In this document: in pieces, positions 19,159-32,242 of the stretch | Position numbering within the stretch: position 1 is the first letter of the stretch | How the letters are laid out: each line of letters starts with the position of its first letter | Assembly (NCBI GenBank): GCA_016214845.1 | Contig: JACRMS010000033.1 | Span: 1 to 64,000 of the forward strand | From: Nitrospirota bacterium | Lineage (GTDB): Bacteria > Nitrospirota > Thermodesulfovibrionia > UBA6902 | Length of the DNA stretch: 64,000 nt | Direction: 5' to 3' | The notes under the pieces: generated by a model | Told to the model about the DNA's origin: nothing | The model's input: the letters and a program-made list of their open reading frames with translations, nothing else | Databases searched by the model: none | Program-made: the position numbers and the translations under genes

Positions 19159-20406
19159 ATGAACATGAGAATTTATCTGAACATAAATAACAGGCCGGGG
19201 TTGAAAAATTATTTAATAGTGTTCTTCTTTATTATCTGCCTGTTCCCGGTAAATGCTTCCGCGCTGATAGGCATAAAGGAAGGGGACGCGCCTAAGGAAA
19301 TCAACCTCAATGATTTAAACGGCCAGCCGGTTGATATTACAGGGCTGTTCGGCAAAAAACCCGTTATCATTATTTTCTGGGAGCTGGTCAGCGACAAGTC
19401 CTTTCTTGATTATTCCATGGATGAGCTGCGCTTCCTGAATGATTATTATGAAAAATACCGTGACAGGCAGGGGCTTGAGATATTCGGTATTTATACGCCT
19501 GTCGAACAGGGCGACATTACGGAAAGCGAGCTTGCCGAAGTGAGGAATTTGATAAAGTCTAACAAAATAAATTTCCCCATACTGATCGACAACGGCTTTA
19601 AAGTGTTCAGGGATTACGGGGTGATCGCGCTCCCGTCAACCATCATGGTCGGCAGGAACGGAAAGATCGAATTTATTTATCCGAGCTTCCCTATTTCAGC
19701 GCAGGCTGTGTTTTCGGAAAAGATCCCCGAGTTGACCGGTACGCAGGCCGCCCGCAAAAAAGAAGATGTCAAAATAAAGGGACCTGATTCTCAGGCAAGC
19801 AGGCTCTACCACTACGCGCTCCAGATGTATAAAAGAGGTCTGCTGGAGCAGGCGGTCTCGCCGCTGAAGAAGTCCCTGTCCCTGGATACTGAAAATGCGT
19901 GGTCTCACAATCTCATGGGGATAGTGCTCTGGGCAAGAGGGAATTTCGACGGGGCAGTTGCGGAGTTTAACCGCGCCCTTGAGCTGGACATCAACAACAA
20001 CGCGGCACATTTCAATTACGGCTTGATGCTTTTTGAGAATGATAAATATGGAGACGCTGAAAAACATTTCAAGACCGCCCTGGCCCTAAATGATAATTTT
20101 GCGGAGGCGCACTATATTTTAGGCATGCTTTATAAGATAACAAACAGGCACAACGATGCGTTGAAGGAACTTCAAACGTCCTTTGCCCTTTTAGAGAAGA
20201 AAAAGTCAGCTCCGGTATTTCTTGAATCATCGGCTTATCAAAGGATATCCACACTGTTTGCACTGTCTGAACTGTACGCTCAAAGCGGAGACCAGAAAGC
20301 GTGTCTGGAACTACTTCATAAAGCGGCCCAGACCGCGCTCGGCATCGACAGCAAAACAGACAAAGAACATCTCTACCGGAGCAAAGACCTGATGGTTTAT
20401 GAATAA
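19159..20406 (+). CDS. Exported thioredoxin-like (TlpA/redoxin) protein with TPR repeats
   Basis: 415 aa from ATG 19159 (19165 and a TTG at 19135 are alternatives). A signal peptide (YLIVFFFIICLFPVNASA) is followed by a TlpA/AhpC-like domain (GDAPKEINLNDLNGQPVDI, KKPVIIIFWELVSD, GVIALPSTIMVGRNGKI). The CXXC expected after the FW motif is missing (FWELVSDKS), so it is not a classical disulphide reductase. Three or more TPRs follow (AWSHNLMGIVLWARGNFDGA; AAHFNYGLMLFENDKYGDAE; AEAHYILGMLYK). It overlaps the cytochrome gene by 8 nt and is probably a periplasmic scaffold or assembly factor for it. Confidence 0.82.
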   Translation: MNMRIYLNINNRPGLKNYLIVFFFIICLFPVNASALIGIKEGDAPKEINLNDLNGQPVDITGLFGKKPVIIIFWELVSDKSFLDYSMDELRFLNDYYEKYRDRQGLEIFGIYTPVEQGDITESELAEVRNLIKSNKINFPILIDNGFKVFRDYGVIALPSTIMVGRNGKIEFIYPSFPISAQAVFSEKIPELTGTQAARKKEDVKIKGPDSQASRLYHYALQMYKRGLLEQAVSPLKKSLSLDTENAWSHNLMGIVLWARGNFDGAVAEFNRALELDINNNAAHFNYGLMLFENDKYGDAEKHFKTALALNDNFAEAHYILGMLYKITNRHNDALKELQTSFALLEKKKSAPVFLESSAYQRISTLFALSELYAQSGDQKACLELLHKAAQTALGIDSKTDKEHLYRSKDLMVYE

Positions 20407-21793
20407 AGGGCAGAAGACAGAAGGCAGAGGACAGAAGACAGAGGACAGAGGACAGAAGACAGATATCCGCCATTTATCTCTCAGCTTTATTATTATTCTG
20501 CTTGTTTTTCTCGCCCACTTCTCAGACGCGTACCCCTTCACCACTTCAAAGGAATTTCTGGCGCATGTCAAAGGGGAAAAGGGCTGCGCTACTCAGCAGT
20601 GTCATCAGCAATTCATGAAAGGCGTGAAAAAGTTTGGGCATGACCCTTCAAGCTCAGGAGAATGCGGTTCATGCCATAATGCAGAGGCATATCCGAACAG
20701 ATACGGCCTTGAATTAAACCAAAGCGTCAGTTGCACCGCTTGCCATAAAAAAGTGGAGCATGACATCCAGGCAGATCAGTTTGTCCACGGGCCCATAAAG
20801 AACGGCGACTGCACCTCCTGCCATGACCCGCACGGCTCGGACACGCCGTTCATACTTAAAAAACCATATAGCCAATTGTGTTCGACATGCCACAGCCTGA
20901 AAGGGCTTTACGCCGGCAGCTTCATTCATAAGCCGGTTGAAGACGGCAACTGCGGGATATGCCACGCGCCTCATTCATCAAATTATAAATCCAGGCTCAG
21001 AGATACCGGCGCCAACCTCTGCCTGTCATGCCACGAAGATATAATGTCCGGCATGACAAAGGAATACGTCCACGCCCCTTTGATAAAGAACGGGTGTATT
21101 GATTGTCATGACCCGCATTCTGGAAATGACAAGTCACGTCTGAAAAGCGCTCCAAACAGGATATGCTTTAATTGCCACGAAGAGAAAAAGACAGAGATGG
21201 ACCAGTACACCAAAAAACATAAACCCGCATTTGAGGGACAGTGCACTGCCTGCCATTCACCCCATTTTTCGGAAAGGAAATATCTGCTCACCGGCGAGAT
21301 CGACACCCTCTGCTACACATGCCACAAAGACAACAGCGTGTGGAAGAAGAGGCAGTTTCAGCACGGCCCCGTAATGCAGGGCAATTGCGCCGCCTGCCAT
21401 AACTCGCACGGCTCGGACAACGCGTTCATCCTCAGGCTGCCTTTTCCCCACAAATTTTATACTGCTTATGAAAAGGGAAAGTACAGTCTCTGTTTCCTCT
21501 GTCACAAAGAGGCGCTCGTGACGACCGGGAAGACGCTGACCATAACGAACTTCAGGAACGGGGACGTCAATCTCCACTGGCTTCATGTCAACCAGGAAAA
21601 AGGCCGCACCTGCCGCGCGTGTCATGACATACACGCCTCCGACATTGAGTACCATTTGCGCGATGAATTTATTTTCGGGACTTCAAGCATACCGATCAAC
21701 TACAGCAAATCTGCAACCGGCGGAAGCTGCGCCCCCGGATGCCATAAAGAGAGAAGATACGACAGGGTAAAAATGGTGGATAATAATAATTAG
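20399..21793 (+). CDS. Multihaem cytochrome c, 13 CXXCH plus two variant sites
   Basis: 464 aa. Thirteen CXXCH motifs (CGSCH, CTACH, CTSCH, CSTCH and so on) occur in doubled-CXXCH spacing, plus CATQQCH (CX4CH) near residue 63 and CAPGCH (CX3CH) near the end, giving up to 15 haem sites. It is exported: the hydrophobic core FIIILLVFLAHFSDAY follows an unusually long, charged n-region encoded by a 7-bp repeat tract. ATG 20399 is the only ATG before the signal core, so the repeat must be translated. Translation is coupled to the TPR gene by overlap. Likely role: periplasmic or outer-surface electron transfer. Confidence 0.93.
   Translation: MNKGQKTEGRGQKTEDRGQKTDIRHLSLSFIIILLVFLAHFSDAYPFTTSKEFLAHVKGEKGCATQQCHQQFMKGVKKFGHDPSSSGECGSCHNAEAYPNRYGLELNQSVSCTACHKKVEHDIQADQFVHGPIKNGDCTSCHDPHGSDTPFILKKPYSQLCSTCHSLKGLYAGSFIHKPVEDGNCGICHAPHSSNYKSRLRDTGANLCLSCHEDIMSGMTKEYVHAPLIKNGCIDCHDPHSGNDKSRLKSAPNRICFNCHEEKKTEMDQYTKKHKPAFEGQCTACHSPHFSERKYLLTGEIDTLCYTCHKDNSVWKKRQFQHGPVMQGNCAACHNSHGSDNAFILRLPFPHKFYTAYEKGKYSLCFLCHKEALVTTGKTLTITNFRNGDVNLHWLHVNQEKGRTCRACHDIHASDIEYHLRDEFIFGTSSIPINYSKSATGGSCAPGCHKERRYDRVKMVDNNN
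20407..20463 (+). repeat. 7-bp tandem repeat tract inside the cytochrome gene's signal-peptide n-region
   Basis: Eight heptamers of the type ACAGARG (ACAGAAG, GCAGAGG, ACAGAGG) follow each other directly after the start codon region. The encoded peptide is a repeated G-Q-K-T-E-x-R pattern. The word family is the same as in priA (3803-3866). Confidence 0.85.
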
Positions 21794-22682: not shown

Positions 22683-25361
22683 TCATTTTCTCCTGTACCG
22701 CCACTTCTCTATTTCTACCGCGAAGAAAACTACTGATGACAATAAGAGCGTAAAAGCCAGCTCACTCAGCGTCAAGGGCTCTGTTTTGAATACAGGGTTC
22801 AATGCAGGGACATAAATGGTTGCCATTTGCAAGGCGAAGGTCAGCACAAAGGCAGCAAATAGAGGTTTATTTGATAACGGGCCCAGAATGAAAAGGGATT
22901 CCTTCTCCGACCTTATTGCAAGAACATGCCCCATCTGGCTCAAACAGAGCACTGTGAATACCATAGTCTGCCAATGGGCATGGCCTGTCCTGATAGACCA
23001 CGCCTGAGTGAAAAGCGACACCGCGCCCATCAACAGGCCCACCCAGACAATATGAATTCCGAGACCGTGCGCGAAGATGCTCTCCTTTGGATGCCTCGGC
23101 GGCCTGCTCATAATGTCTTTCTCCGCAGGTTCTGCGGCAAGGGCAAGTCCCGGGACCCCGTCGGTGACCAGGTTTATCCAGAGTATATGAATAGGAAGCA
23201 GTGGTATGGGGAGACCGAAGAACGGCGCAAGGAATATCGTCCATATCTCGCCGGAGTTGCTCGTCATGGTGTATTTGATGAACTTCCTTATGTTGTCGAA
23301 AATCCTCCTGCCTTCTTTCACTGCCTTCACTATGGTGGCGAAGTTGTCGTCGAGAAGGACCATGTGGGATGCCTCTTTTGCCACGTCTGTTCCTGTAATG
23401 CCCATGGCGACCCCGATGTCCGCCCTCTTCAGCGCAGGCGCGTCATTGACCCCGTCGCCTGTCATGGCGGCAAATTCCCCCCTGTCCTGGAGCGCCTTTA
23501 CTATCTTTATCTTTTGCTCCGGAGCAACCCTTGCGTATACCCTGATACGGCCGACCCTCTCCTCAAACTCCTCCTGCGATAATTTCTCAAGCTCCCTTCC
23601 CGTGATTACAGCCTTTGAGTCATCCTCGAGGATGCCCAGTCTTTTGGCTATGGCCTTTGCCGTCAGTGGATGGTCGCCGGTTATCATAACAGGCTTGATC
23701 CCTGCTGCCCTGCACATCGATACAGCCTCTTTTGCCTCTTCTCTCGGAGGGTCCATCATGCCGACAAGGCCTATCATGGTCAATCCCTTTTCCACGTTTT
23801 CAGGGGTGATCTCAGCAGGCAGATCGTCCCATGTCTTCATTGCCATGCCAAGGACCCTCAGCCCATCAGCAGCCATACGTTCGCTGACCCTGAGAATTTC
23901 TTCTCTATTTATTATTTTTAAACCATCAGACGTTAAGACGTTGTCCGATTTATCAATCAAGACATCCACAGCGCCCTTGGTAAAAGAGAGAAACCGGGGG
24001 TTAGGGATTGGTGCTTCTAAACTAATCCCTGACACCTGACCCCTAACCCCTGCCTTGTGAAATGTTGTCATGCACTTTCTCTCGGAGTCAAAGGGTATTT
24101 CCGCTGCGCGCGTGAACTTCTCTTCAAGCTCCTGTTTGATGAAACCGTTTTTAAAAGCAATATCAAAAAGCGCGGTCTCCGTGGGGTCTCCTATCAGCTT
24201 ACCGTCCTTATCCAGAACCGAGTCATTACTGAGGGCAAGGGCGGTGAAAAGAAGGGATTGGGGATTGGGGATTGGGGATTGGTTTTCTTTACTGACCCCT
24301 GACCCCTGACCCCTAACCCCCACAATTTCATTGTTCACATACATCTCTTCAACCGTCATTTTATTAAGAGTGAGCGTGCCTGTTTTGTCAGAGCATATGA
24401 AAGTCACTGAGCCCAGGGTCTCAACGGCAGGGAGTTTTCTTATGAGGGCGTTTTGTTTTACCAGCTTCTTTGCGCCTAACGCTAATGCGATGGTTACTAC
24501 TGCGGGAAGTGCCTCTGGAATGGCAGCTACGGCAAGCGAGATGGCAGTCAAAAGCATAAGCAGCGGCGGTTCATTTCTTATGACCCCTATGGTGAAAACT
24601 GTGGCGCATATTGCAAGGACGGCAAAGGCAAGCCTCTGCCCGAAAGTCGTAAGCCTTTTCTGAAGCGGCGTCTTTACTTCTTCCTCCTCCTGCAGCATGT
24701 TGGCAATCTTGCCCAGCTCTGTATCCATGCCCGTTGCCGCAACGAGGCCGGTCCCCCGCCCGTAGGTGACAACCGTGCCTTTGTACGCCATGTTCTTCCT
24801 GTCGCCAAGCGGCAGGAACGCATCGTGTAATTCGTGCGTGTGCTTTTCAACAGGGGCCGATTCACCGGTTAGCGCGGCTTCTTCAACCTGAAGCCTGGCT
24901 GTCTCGATCAGTCTCATGTCGGCAGGCACGATCTTTCCGGCTTCAAGGACCACGACATCCCCTGGAACGAGCGCGGAGGCTGACACGGTTTCGGGTATGC
25001 CGTTCCGTATCACTGTTGCGGAAGGGGCAGTCATTGTCTTAAGGGCCGCCATCGCTTTTTCAGCCCTGTATTCCTGTATGAATCCGATGGCCGCATTGAG
25101 TACGACAATTACAATTATTGCAATTGTATCCGACAACTCGCCGATAAATCCTGAAATGACTGCGGCAGCTATGAGGACAAGGATCATGAAGTCCCTGAAC
25201 TGGTCAAGGAACATCATGAAAGGGGTCTTCTTCTTTTTCTCTTTTAATTCATTTGGGCCGTATTCTCCGAGACGCCTGACAGCTTCTTCTGATGAAAGGC
25301 CCTGTGCGGATGACCTCAGTTCTTCGATAGCAGAAGTTATATTTTTTTGATGCCAGTGCAT
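22683..25361 (-). CDS. P2A-type cation ATPase (Ca2+/Mn2+ type), riboswitch-controlled
   Basis: 892 aa. Motifs: TGES (165-168), M4 PEALP (282-286), phosphorylation site DKTGT (Asp325), TGDG and [10 protein letters not shown] of the P domain, M5 with N-S-G-E and M6 with N-L-V-T-D-G. These transport residues match SERCA/PMR1-type Ca2+/Mn2+ pumps. Two low-complexity insertions lie in the nucleotide-binding domain (residues 348-370 and about 438-459), both encoded by 7-bp repeat DNA. The start is 3 bp after the stop of the UPF0182 gene, so the two are one operon under the yybP-ykoY riboswitch at 28131-28231. Mn2+ export is therefore the best prediction. Confidence 0.93.
23996..24050 (-). repeat. 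7-bp repeat tract inside the ATPase gene (insertion 2)
   Basis: Minus-strand order: GGGGTTA, GGGGTCA, GGTGTCA, GGGATTA, a spacer of about 11 nt, then CCAATCC and CTAACCC. It encodes the segment [18 protein letters not shown]. It has the same G-rich-tract, spacer, C-rich-tract architecture as the other insertion at 24253-24321. Confidence 0.8.
24253..24321 (-). repeat. 7-bp repeat tract inside the ATPase gene (insertion 1)
   Basis: Minus-strand order: three GGGGTCA-type heptamers, a spacer near TAAAGAAAA, then four CCAATCC-type heptamers. It encodes [20 protein letters not shown]. The two halves are partly complementary, so the transcript could fold locally. Confidence 0.85.
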
Positions 25362-25364
25362 TAT

Positions 25365-28046
25365 CTATTTTGCCATCCTCTTTAAAATCTGCTCAAGTCT
25401 TTTGATCTCCTCTCCATAGCCTCCCCAGTTTCCCTGCCTCTGCAGTTCAATGGCTTTTTCAAATACCTTCATAGCTTCTTTTGCAAGGTCTGTGCTTGTT
25501 GTCTTAACATCTACAACCGTCCCGCCGGCCTTTGCGGCAATTGTTTTCATTGTACCGAATAATCTCTGGAGGGCGATATCGAGATTTTCTTCCATGACCA
25601 CATTGTTCTCATAGGCGACGATGACCCTTCTCAGTTCAGGCAGACCCGCTTTATCGGCAGCCGCAAGGTAAAGGGGCTGGACATATAAGAGGGAGCGTTC
25701 TATCGGGATTACGAGGAGGCTGCCCCTTATGACCTCTGAGCCGCTTTGCCCCCAGAGGGTAAGCTGCTGGGATATGTAGGCGTCCTGGTTTATCCTTGCA
25801 TCCACCTGTTTCGGTCCAAAGATAAGCCTGTCTCTCGGAAAGGTATAGACAAGCAGTTTCCCGTAATTCGGCTCATCACACCGCGCAGCAAGCCACGCGA
25901 CGAGGTTGTCCCTTTTTGCGGGGTTATACGGCAGAAGCAGGATGTAATCTTCCTTCTTTTCTCCCGGGAGCTTCATTATTGTGTAGTACGGCTCCATGAG
26001 CTTTTCCCCGAAGGCGGGGACCTCCCACAGGTTCTCCTTATTATAAAAAATCTTCGGGTCTGTCATGTGGTAAGAGGCGAACATGGAGGCCTGCACCTGA
26101 AGAAGCCAGTTCGGATACCGGATATGCCGCCTCAAATCATCAGGCATCTCTTTAAGGGGCTTGAACATGTCAGGGAATATCTTTGAATAGACTTTTATGA
26201 CAATATCGGAAGGGTCGCTCACATAAAAATTCATAGAGCCGTTATAGGCGTCGACCACAACCTTTACGGAATTCCTTACGTAGTTGACCCTGCCTGACGG
26301 CTTTGAATAAGGCATCCTGTTTGATACAGTATATGCGTCCACGATCCAGAAAAGTCTTCCATCCCCCGATATGACGGAATAAGGGTCACGATCAAAAAGC
26401 AGAAAGGGCGCTGTCTTGCCGATCCTTTCCAGGACGTTTCTATAATATAAGACCTTGCTCTCCCCCGTGATGTCCGAGGACAGCAGTATCTTCTCAGTCT
26501 TGAATTTCAGCGCGAATAAAGCCCTTTTAAGCAGGGAGTCCAGCCTGACGCCTCCGCTGCCGGCATAAGTCGTATATACATTACTTTCAGTTGTCGGATA
26601 GCTGAACTCAGGCACCTTTGTTTTCACTATTACATAATCGTTGGAGAGTTCGCCGTAATATATCTCCGGCCGGGTGACCTTGAGGTCCACACGGCTGACC
26701 GGGGGAATGTCCTTTATTATGAACTCGGGAAGGCCTTCTTTGGTAATCCTGCTTACGGGTCCCAGCGTTATGCCGTTCCCATGGGTAAATATCAGCCTCT
26801 CGTTTATCCAGTTCCTGCTCGGAAGGTCGCTGTATGAGAGTTCCCTCGGAGAAAGCATCACCTGCATATATTCGCCGTCTATTGTATATCTGTCATTATC
26901 AACGTCCGCAAATTTATAATAGGTCCTTATCTGCTGTAGCTGGCTGTAGGTCCTGAGAAGCGGGCTGTGGTCCCATAATCTTATATTTTTTATAGTGGCG
27001 TCATTTGCTTCTATGTCCCTGACCGTCAGATTATAATCAACATCAAAGGGTATCACCTCGATCCTCTCAAGGTCGTAGCCCAGCCTTGTGAATTTTATGC
27101 TGTGTTCTATAAACGGCGTCTCAAGCACCAGTTCATTCGGCGCTACCTTGAATTTCTGCAGTAAGGACGGATATGCCACAATCCCGATGAGATACACTGC
27201 CAGGACCAGGACCGGAGGGACAAATGTCAGTTTGCCTGAGCCTCTCAATATCCCAGCCATGAAGACAATGCCTGCTGCCGGGGTGATGAATATCAGTATC
27301 CTGTAAAAAAAGAGTTTCGCGTAAATGTCAGTATACCCTGCGCCGGAGACAACGCCATGGTCCGAGAACAGAAGCCTGAATGTATCGAGATAAAAGCCGA
27401 AGCCGGTATTAAGGATGAACAACCCTGCCAGGACCCCGATATGCTTCTTCACTCCCGCGTCTATGGAAACGCCTCTCTCAGTTACAAGGATGCCGCCTCT
27501 TAAAAAATAGTTTGCAGCCGTCAATATCATCGTTAATGCCAGAGTAAAACCTGCAAAGCCCTTTACCGTCTCTACAAAGGGAAGCCTGAACAGATAAAAG
27601 CCGATGTCTTTGGCTAATATGGGGTCTGCCGTTCCCATGTCCAGACTGTTCTTGAAGAGCAGGAACTCTTCCCATCTTAACGCGCCCCACTGCCCTGCAA
27701 AGACAGCCATAACAATCCCTGCAATTACAGTAAGGGGTTTGATAAACCTTTCCAAACCGCTCGCTCTTAATATGTGGAGGACCCCGTCACTTGTATATAT
27801 TTCTCTTTGAAGGAAACCAATCCTGTTGGCGATGATTATATTCGCCAGAGCAAATAACAAAAATGCTGTGCCGAAGAAAATAAATGTGCTGATCCTGGTA
27901 AAGAGCGTCTTTAAAAAGACCGCCGCATACCCGGTTTCCGCAAAAAAGAGCCAGTCAACATACAGGTTCAGTAAGCCCAGAAGAAGCGGCATTACCAGAA
28001 AGATGGTCCCGAACACAATCAAGTAACTTATTTTGTTTTTATTCAC
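25365..28046 (-). CDS. UPF0182 (COG1615) large membrane protein
   Basis: 893 aa from GTG 28046 with GGGGGA just upstream. About seven TM helices in the first 300 residues (FGTIFLVMPLLLGLLNLYVDWLFF is the first), then a large extracytoplasmic region typical of UPF0182 (DYNLTVRDIEANDATIKNIRLWD; the RTYYKF and VDAYNGSMNFYV blocks), and an alpha-helical C-terminus. The family is uncharacterised. Here it is the first gene behind a Mn2+ riboswitch and is followed 3 bp later by a Ca2+/Mn2+-type ATPase, which suggests a role in manganese export or envelope metal homeostasis. That is an inference from context only. Confidence 0.92.
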   Translation of the reverse strand: MNKNKISYLIVFGTIFLVMPLLLGLLNLYVDWLFFAETGYAAVFLKTLFTRISTFIFFGTAFLLFALANIIIANRIGFLQREIYTSDGVLHILRASGLERFIKPLTVIAGIVMAVFAGQWGALRWEEFLLFKNSLDMGTADPILAKDIGFYLFRLPFVETVKGFAGFTLALTMILTAANYFLRGGILVTERGVSIDAGVKKHIGVLAGLFILNTGFGFYLDTFRLLFSDHGVVSGAGYTDIYAKLFFYRILIFITPAAGIVFMAGILRGSGKLTFVPPVLVLAVYLIGIVAYPSLLQKFKVAPNELVLETPFIEHSIKFTRLGYDLERIEVIPFDVDYNLTVRDIEANDATIKNIRLWDHSPLLRTYSQLQQIRTYYKFADVDNDRYTIDGEYMQVMLSPRELSYSDLPSRNWINERLIFTHGNGITLGPVSRITKEGLPEFIIKDIPPVSRVDLKVTRPEIYYGELSNDYVIVKTKVPEFSYPTTESNVYTTYAGSGGVRLDSLLKRALFALKFKTEKILLSSDITGESKVLYYRNVLERIGKTAPFLLFDRDPYSVISGDGRLFWIVDAYTVSNRMPYSKPSGRVNYVRNSVKVVVDAYNGSMNFYVSDPSDIVIKVYSKIFPDMFKPLKEMPDDLRRHIRYPNWLLQVQASMFASYHMTDPKIFYNKENLWEVPAFGEKLMEPYYTIMKLPGEKKEDYILLLPYNPAKRDNLVAWLAARCDEPNYGKLLVYTFPRDRLIFGPKQVDARINQDAYISQQLTLWGQSGSEVIRGSLLVIPIERSLLYVQPLYLAAADKAGLPELRRVIVAYENNVVMEENLDIALQRLFGTMKTIAAKAGGTVVDVKTTSTDLAKEAMKVFEKAIELQRQGNWGGYGEEIKRLEQILKRMAK

Positions 28047-28091
28047 AGTATCCCCCGTTCAAACGGTTATTAATACTAAATTGATGTTAAT

Positions 28092-28138
28092 AAAAAACCT
28101 TTACCACGAATGCATATTACATGCAACCGTGATAAAGG
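28092..28138 (-). terminator. Regulated terminator of the Mn2+ riboswitch
   Basis: On the minus strand CCTTTATCACG (28128-28138) pairs over 11 bp with CGTGGTAAAGG (28098-28108), extended by TGCAT/ATGCA, and six T follow (28092-28097). The 5' arm CCTTTATC is also the 3' arm of the aptamer P1 helix, so P1 and terminator exclude each other. Confidence 0.93.
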
Positions 28139-28231
28139 TCTTGCTTGTTAGTTTTTACCTAACCAGCGGTACCGGCCTGCCTAAGGCAGACGTGCTGACG
28201 ATAGCCGCTGATCCAGCTACTCCCCTTTACC
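28131..28231 (-). ncRNA. yybP-ykoY manganese riboswitch aptamer
   Basis: The minus strand carries both conserved blocks of this family: AAAGGGGAGTAGC at the 5' side and GCAAGACCTTT at the 3' side. P1 is GGTAAAGG (28224-28231) with CCTTTATC (28131-28138). An internal helix CAGCGG/CCGCTG and a hairpin GTTAG/CTAAC just before AAGCAAGACC also match the known architecture. The family binds Mn2+ and turns on exporters. Here Mn2+ would stabilise P1, block the terminator at 28092-28138 and switch on the UPF0182-ATPase operon. Confidence 0.95.
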
Positions 28232-28237
28232 CGTGTA

Positions 28238-28266
28238 GTTATAGCTGAATATAATGAATATGTCAA
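28238..28266 (-). promoter_or_regulatory. Sigma-70 promoter of the riboswitch operon
   Basis: On the minus strand TTGACA (28261-28266) and TATAAC (28238-28243) are 17 bp apart. Transcription would begin around 28231, exactly at the 5' arm of the aptamer P1 helix. The rest of the 28267-28466 gap shows no further recognisable element. Confidence 0.9.
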
Positions 28267-31551: not shown

Positions 31552-32052
31552 TTACTCCTTCATGTGGCAGGACAAACAAAGCGCTTTCTTTTCTTTACGC
31601 AGGAGCTTTGCTAAATCACCTCCGTGCGGTGAGTGGCAGGTTGCGCAAGTGATGATATTCCCGTCCGCCAGAGGAAGGTCTTCCGCGATCTTCAAATCGC
31701 TCTTTACACTTACAGCAATATCGACGGGGTGGGTATTCTGCCTGGGCTGATGACAGTTATTGTTCATGCAGGCAGGCCCCCCGGCCTCGCGATTGCTCTT
31801 CAGTTCTCCTTTAAGGTGTCCGTTATTTTCATAAAGGACCTTCCCCCACTTACTGAAGCCGTTAAGCTGAATATGACACTCTTTACAGTTTTTCATTACA
31901 ATGTCCGAATGCTGAAAGGGGAATGAATATATCTGCATATACAGTTTCTTGTGACATTCCTCGCAGCCCATATCTTGCGCAAAAGAATACCGGATTGAAA
32001 ACGACAACGAAAGAAGGATAAAAACAGTAAGTTGAAGAATGACCGGCAGCAT
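31552..32052 (-). CDS. Small multihaem cytochrome c (four CXXCH plus CX4CH)
   Basis: 166 aa from ATG 32052 (frame open to 32103). Signal peptide (VILQLTVFILLSLSFSIRYSFA), then CEECH, CKECH, CMNNNCH, CATCH and CLSCH. The CX4CH site is rare and matches the CX4CH site of the large cytochrome at 20399, suggesting the same haem-lyase specificity. Extra His (HSDIVM, HLKGEL, HPVD) could be distal ligands, so the haems are probably bis-His. It is likely a periplasmic electron carrier. It is convergent with the exonuclease gene, 5 bp apart. Confidence 0.88.
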   Translation of the reverse strand: MLPVILQLTVFILLSLSFSIRYSFAQDMGCEECHKKLYMQIYSFPFQHSDIVMKNCKECHIQLNGFSKWGKVLYENNGHLKGELKSNREAGGPACMNNNCHQPRQNTHPVDIAVSVKSDLKIAEDLPLADGNIITCATCHSPHGGDLAKLLRKEKKALCLSCHMKE

Positions 32053-32242
32053 AATTTTATCCGGAAATAGTTGTCGGCGCTTATGACAGGATATTTGATG
32101 CATGGCCTCAGTCCTGGCTTAAAGTATACTACAGATCAGGACCTTGAAACATCAAATACATTTTTTATTTTTTTCAGTAACCCATCCCGATGTATTTCGC
32201 CACGCCGCAGGAAAGCGATAAACCCCGGACTCATTCTCCTCC

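Follow-up and report, generated by a model that had tools for sequence, protein, structure and literature searches.

The leaders of alx, a gene of the TerC family, and mntP in Escherichia coli are verified Mn2+ riboswitches; each controls a single gene, with neither UPF0182 nor HtpX in the operon. In Lactococcus lactis a yybP-ykoY leader (RF00080) acts on yoaB, which encodes a P-type ATPase, through a terminator platform in which helix P1.1 and the terminator compete to give an ON switch (PMC11087558). In Bacillus subtilis, the accessible part of one study reports that the TerC protein MeeY is under a Mn2+ riboswitch and that the TerC proteins MeeF and MeeY copurify with SecDF, SecY, FtsH and HtpX and metalate exported enzymes, UPF0182 not being among the partners shown there (PMC10246235). 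TerC is thus physically associated with HtpX in B. subtilis, as far as that part of the study goes, and in operons described below TerC and HtpX form a single operon with UPF0182.

UPF0182 is a large protein family, spread over actinobacteria, cyanobacteria, Nitrospirota, deltaproteobacteria and archaea, for which we know of no function and no solved fold. Two described members, Swol_1161 of Syntrophomonas wolfei (PMC3582634) and one in a spermidine locus of Leptospirillum (PMC7231039), share the predicted membrane topology of the protein studied here but have no reported link to manganese, and linkage to a riboswitch was not found in any source. No report placing UPF0182 together with yybP-ykoY was found in the open literature (the tables of the 2015 and 2019 primary papers may mention it) and co-mentions of UPF0182 and manganese were, by title and abstract, unrelated. 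The window analysed here is a 64,000 nucleotide stretch of a 3.4 Mb Nitrospirota metagenome-assembled genome (contig JACRMS010000033.1), whose nearest named relative sharing the locus is a groundwater 'Nitrospirae bacterium'. In it a leader of this riboswitch class precedes a UPF0182 gene, which extends the known class to a new target family and a new gene order.

All elements of the leader lie on the minus strand. A sigma70-like promoter (TTGACA-17 nt-TATAAC, 28238-28266), found by direct reading and identical in the sister genome G006, is followed by the aptamer (28130-28232), which was placed by a local covariance model, R1, and by folding of the aptamer alone. Its parts are helix P1.1 (TAAAGG/CCTTTA), the GGGGAGTAGC loop, P3 with its CGTCA/CCGG loop, P4 and GCAAGACC, with AAAGGGGAGTAGC, CGTCA...CCGG and GCAAGACCTTT as landmarks by direct reading. 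The aptamer core and helices found in yoaB are thus shared: the conserved yybP-ykoY core, GGGGAGUAG ... GCAAGACC, is present together with P1.1, P1.2, P3 and P4, and every core position conserved among 39 Nitrospirota leaders is intact. As in yoaB, a terminator overlaps the aptamer (AAGACCTTTATCACG...CGTGGTAAAGGTTTTTT, about 28092-28142, by folding), and since the 3' strand of P1.1 also serves as the 5' arm of this terminator, the aptamer and terminator folds are mutually exclusive, as in an ON switch. The whole-leader fold lies 5.9 s.d. below shuffles; without the terminator the aptamer folds into P1.1, P1.2, P3 and P4, whilst the full leader forms the terminator instead. The earlier note had read a promoter, a yybP-ykoY aptamer, a regulated terminator and a UPF0182-ATPase operon with a 3 bp gap from the letters alone. 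This reading held throughout: the class by its R1 score, fold and homology to alx and mntP, the terminator as an ON-type platform by the two folds, and the promoter and gene pair by direct reading, open-reading frames and Pfam, the two genes presumably being co-transcribed. Homology and structure both place the leader among the yybP-ykoY Mn2+ riboswitches, and we infer that Mn2+ is its ligand here.

The covariance-model check that the earlier note had proposed at the aptamer divided between the two models. RF00080 gave the window leader 12.2 bits, short of its gathering score (45), which is a detection threshold rather than a defining trait, and a search of the whole window genome with RF00080 returned no match. 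The same model placed the E. coli mntP leader below its cut-off (41.6 bits), missed alx, and matched only 2 of 20 sister leaders, both below cut-off. A motif search of 396 Nitrospirota genomes yielded 43 sites. At 41, the complete architecture and a terminator were present and plausible metal genes followed; the other two lie inside coding sequence and look like chance matches. R1 was built from 39 of these Nitrospirota leaders; the window, as one of these training members, scores 100 bits (E 2e-25). In a 12 kb E. coli control the top two matches of R1 were alx (31.7 bits, E 2e-7) and mntP (21.8 bits, E 2e-4), neither of which was in the training set. As R1 recovers both leaders where RF00080 fails, RF00080 is insensitive here, and we dismissed the weak or absent Rfam call, at the gathering and at a permissive threshold alike, as evidence against the leader because the same model also fails on the E. 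coli controls. Among leaders from UPF0182 loci, covariation was 0.239 against 0.099 in shuffled alignments (0/500), with 95% of cells paired in an alignment that was itself fitted to the model. Surveys that rely on RF00080 will undercount the class, since almost every Nitrospirota leader, and even E. coli alx, escapes it.

R1 leaders occurred in 72 of the 396 Nitrospirota genomes. Of 89 leader sites, 81 had a recognisable terminator arm of the P1.1-exclusive platform. The genes downstream of the 89 sites, identified by Pfam and NCBIfam, were most often P2A ATPases (43 genomes), HtpX (32) and the zinc-ribbon protein PF13453 (28), followed by beta-carbonic anhydrase (11), GDT1/UPF0016 (9), UPF0182 (6), TerC (6) and UPF0114 (5). 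The Nitrospirota leaders differ from the RF00080/yoaB type both in being missed by the Rfam model and in targets that include UPF0182, HtpX, the zinc ribbon and carbonic anhydrase; TerC is a target family shared with E. coli alx. HtpX was the first gene in 32 of its 33 copies behind Nitrospirota leaders. No report of HtpX as a Mn2+ riboswitch target was found in the open literature; its addition to the predicted regulon fits the TerC-HtpX-Sec interaction in Bacillus. This membrane protease, the usual first riboswitch gene in Nitrospirota, is also common in the second order treated below (L159:632-1480; L391:7652-8518). The small zinc-ribbon protein recurs across its 28 genomes (e.g. L039:7540-7845), and to our knowledge has no known role in a Mn2+ regulon.

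In six Nitrospirota genomes, from five genera and four families, UPF0182 takes first or second place after the leader: the window genome (G000) and G006 in the same genus, G373 and G176 in another family, and G304 and G066 in two further families. The weakest case is G066, where the leader scores 31.7 bits, the gene is split and contamination is 6%. In a random sample, 40 genomes held both a UPF0182 gene and a leader (51 leaders, G006 lying outside the sample); UPF0182 was first or second at five of the 51 against 0.04 expected (Poisson P about 6e-10 if independent). The five sites are not independent events, but even three that were independent would hardly be expected by chance. At two loci (L264 and L275) two Mn2+ riboswitches lie ≤2.6 kb apart on one strand, the first before HtpX or carbonic anhydrase and the next before the UPF0182 operon.

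The same pairing recurs in a second, deltaproteobacterial phylum. Sampling 168 genomes there led to G488, where HtpX, TerC and UPF0182 follow a leader scoring 37 bits (E 2e-8). Within its order, which we take to be Geobacterales, 86 of 141 genomes carry this form of UPF0182. We read 41 UPF0182 loci of this order with about 5 kb of upstream sequence and a leader cut-off of E ≤ 5e-5, and a same-strand upstream leader was present at 31. The usual order is riboswitch, HtpX, TerC and UPF0182, and GDT1 or an Alx-like TerC often comes next; 23 of the 31 loci are strictly colinear and most of the other eight are interrupted only by short opposite-strand open-reading frames that overlap real genes. Most of these Geobacterales-type operons hold UPF0182 with TerC and HtpX and no ATPase. 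The search for other UPF0182 genes with such a leader, suggested at the outset as a check, thus found them in Nitrospirota and beyond, and the link between UPF0182 and manganese is borne out by a leader-UPF0182 pairing in two phyla. We consider it very probable that a UPF0182 subfamily is regulated by this riboswitch and has a role in the Mn2+ response, leaving its exact biochemistry aside; we hold the regulatory link far more firmly than any biochemical role.

The link has clear phylogenetic limits. On a 187-tip tree, all 36 riboswitch-linked genes (37 with G066, which was left out of the tree) fall into one 55-tip clade with 0.999 support, and none occurs among the 132 tips outside it. For 19 of the 55 clade members, the sequence read contains no leader. 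Within f17, the family of G373, a leader is present in the two genomes whose UPF0182 is of the clade type (100 and 83% identity), and the other 21-22 UPF0182 genes of that family (42-49% identity) lie outside the clade and have none. The linked genes share ancestry, with about four changes on a 128-tip tree, which implies few independent linkages. Judged by sequence, the manganese link belongs to one subfamily of UPF0182 and not to the whole family. A family-wide link was rejected, as the pattern motif was found only at G006 among 66 UPF0182 loci from many phyla. An ATPase or HtpX also lies near UPF0182 without a riboswitch in cyanobacteria, Elusimicrobia and Chromatiales, in cases too few to count.

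In the mechanism we propose, high cytosolic Mn2+ would stabilise helix P1.1 of the riboswitch, the overlapping terminator would be blocked and RNA polymerase would read on, in the window into a two-gene transcript of UPF0182 and the P2A ATPase. The UPF0182 subfamily would form part of a Mn2+-induced envelope set comprising the HtpX protease, TerC, the GDT1 antiporter, the P2A ATPase and the zinc-ribbon protein, and would act as a membrane-anchored periplasmic factor beside TerC and HtpX, on proteins that become loaded with, or damaged by, Mn2+ as the metal is pushed out of the cytosol. As TerC and HtpX are its constant partners, and the two copurify in B. subtilis, we favour a role beside them in metalation or quality control of envelope proteins; taken by itself this role is held tentatively, although it is the most likely of those considered. 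It ranks ahead of a role as transporter or Mn2+ enzyme and of one as ATPase accessory, with mere passage in the operon least likely. More broadly, and still as a conjecture, the UPF0182 subfamily, TerC and HtpX may constitute a Mn2+-switched metalation and quality-control module, an unrecognised core component of envelope Mn2+ handling that runs through Geobacterales and has spread into Nitrospirota.

The protein itself bears on the next reading. The window UPF0182 gene (25365-28046, minus strand, GTG start, 893 aa) matches PF03699 over its whole length (E = 5e-284, profile positions 3-770 of 770), and its AlphaFold2 model (pLDDT 89.5, pTM 0.84) predicts seven transmembrane helices (residues 1-323) followed by a large beta-rich domain (about 330-830), which is presumably periplasmic. 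Invariant or near-invariant residues of this domain are D359, D385, E402, H422, D570, N588, N592, H641 and H660. Such conserved Asp, Glu, His and Asn in a large extracytoplasmic domain, joined to seven predicted helices and placed beside transporters, would speak for UPF0182 itself moving Mn2+, or being a Mn2+-requiring envelope enzyme that is induced because it needs the metal or disposes of it. The transmembrane part, however, has few conserved acidic residues, the fold of the model matches no transporter or enzyme, and many organisms carry other UPF0182 proteins without a manganese link, so that we regard this reading as somewhat unlikely. A PDB fold search with the model found no similar solved structure at E ≤ 0.001, and hence no biochemical hint. 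In the viral database BFVD the model had a single strong match, entry A0A6G5YLZ4 (E 1e-12), perhaps a protein of the UPF0182 family whose contig is viral or misassigned.

The second gene (22683-25361, minus strand, 892 aa; Pfam and PDB matches) begins 3 bp beyond the stop codon of UPF0182 and encodes a P2A-type Ca2+/Mn2+ ATPase. It has the P-type domains and phosphorylation loop, keeps the ion-ligand motifs AIPEALP (M4), SNSGE (M5) and NLVTD (M6), and has Gln at the place of SERCA E908. Its aligned PDB matches include LMCA1 (1.9e-189) and SPCA1 (5e-166). Against the NCBIfam equivalogs it scores 734 bits for TIGR01522 (PMR1, cut-off 798) and 674 for TIGR01116 (SERCA, cut-off 703), and as it is below both cut-offs we file it only as P2A-type. 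The earlier note had proposed that UPF0182 is a partner or accessory of Mn2+ export, in the strict form of this idea a dedicated subunit, chaperone or porter of the ATPase. In its favour, the two genes are only 3 bp apart in the window, the UPF0182-ATPase order is kept in G006 and G373, an ATPase lies near UPF0182 without a riboswitch in two Nostocales and at two loci of the order of G488, and the ATPases of the window and G006 share 79% identity against 93% for UPF0182, as if the slot had been kept and its occupant changed. This proposal proved too narrow: the window, G006 and G373 are the only three riboswitch loci with an ATPase after UPF0182, about 40 Nitrospirota genomes have the ATPase behind the riboswitch but no UPF0182 there, and UPF0182 is more commonly partnered by TerC and HtpX, in operons with no ATPase, a pattern that a metalation or quality-control role fits better than an exporter subunit. 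We consequently rejected a specific ATPase partnership as the main reading, and judge it improbable. At L332:3530-3713, a degraded P2A ATPase C-terminus lies just upstream of a UPF0182 gene 80% identical to that of the window.

The history of the locus gives some room to the idea that UPF0182 is a passenger, placed by chance behind a strong regulated promoter and kept by operon inertia. A three-way alignment of the window, G006 and G007 locates a deletion junction at 28075-28090 on the minus strand (...ACATCAA/TTTAG...), at a TCAA microhomology: about 440 bp that include a zinc-ribbon (zf-TFIIB) gene are missing from the window relative to G006, in which this gene still separates the riboswitch from UPF0182. 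On this alignment, the direct contact of riboswitch and UPF0182 in the window arose by recent deletion. The close relative G007 has a UPF0182 gene 92% identical to that of the window and shares the sequence before it with G006, but lacks a riboswitch. Flanking genes of the window and G006 are 91-97% identical, and the lower identity of the ATPase (L278) suggests probable replacement in place; the genus of the window mostly carries another UPF0182 version (about 60% identity), so the operon was probably acquired. The linked genes are also related by descent and transfer. Against chance placement stand their occurrence in two phyla, where partners and gene order differ, the excess of observed over expected sites, and conservation in most of one order, and we find the passenger reading very doubtful. 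Least probable of all is that the leader is a relic or answers another signal such as pH, for which the low RF00080 score and the response of E. coli alx to alkaline pH besides Mn2+ (see the abstract of PMC9603457) might speak, given that its conserved core and its platform are intact and that the genes which follow such leaders throughout the phylum (GDT1, TerC and Ca2+/Mn2+ ATPase) are known Mn2+ genes.

A Mn2+ riboswitch before UPF0182 in two phyla, in company with TerC, HtpX and GDT1, names a physiological stimulus and likely partners for the subfamily, and makes the question of UPF0182 testable in culturable Geobacter species. The favoured metalation and quality-control module would, if true, open a first way into the function of the UPF0182 family. 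Around the window operon, multihaem cytochromes with paired CXXCH motifs flank both sides (20399-21793, plus strand; 31552-32103, minus strand). Divergent from the riboswitch operon lies a gene for an LtaS-like sulfatase-fold phosphotransferase (PF00884; 28467-30428, plus strand), a family that is often Mn2+-dependent.
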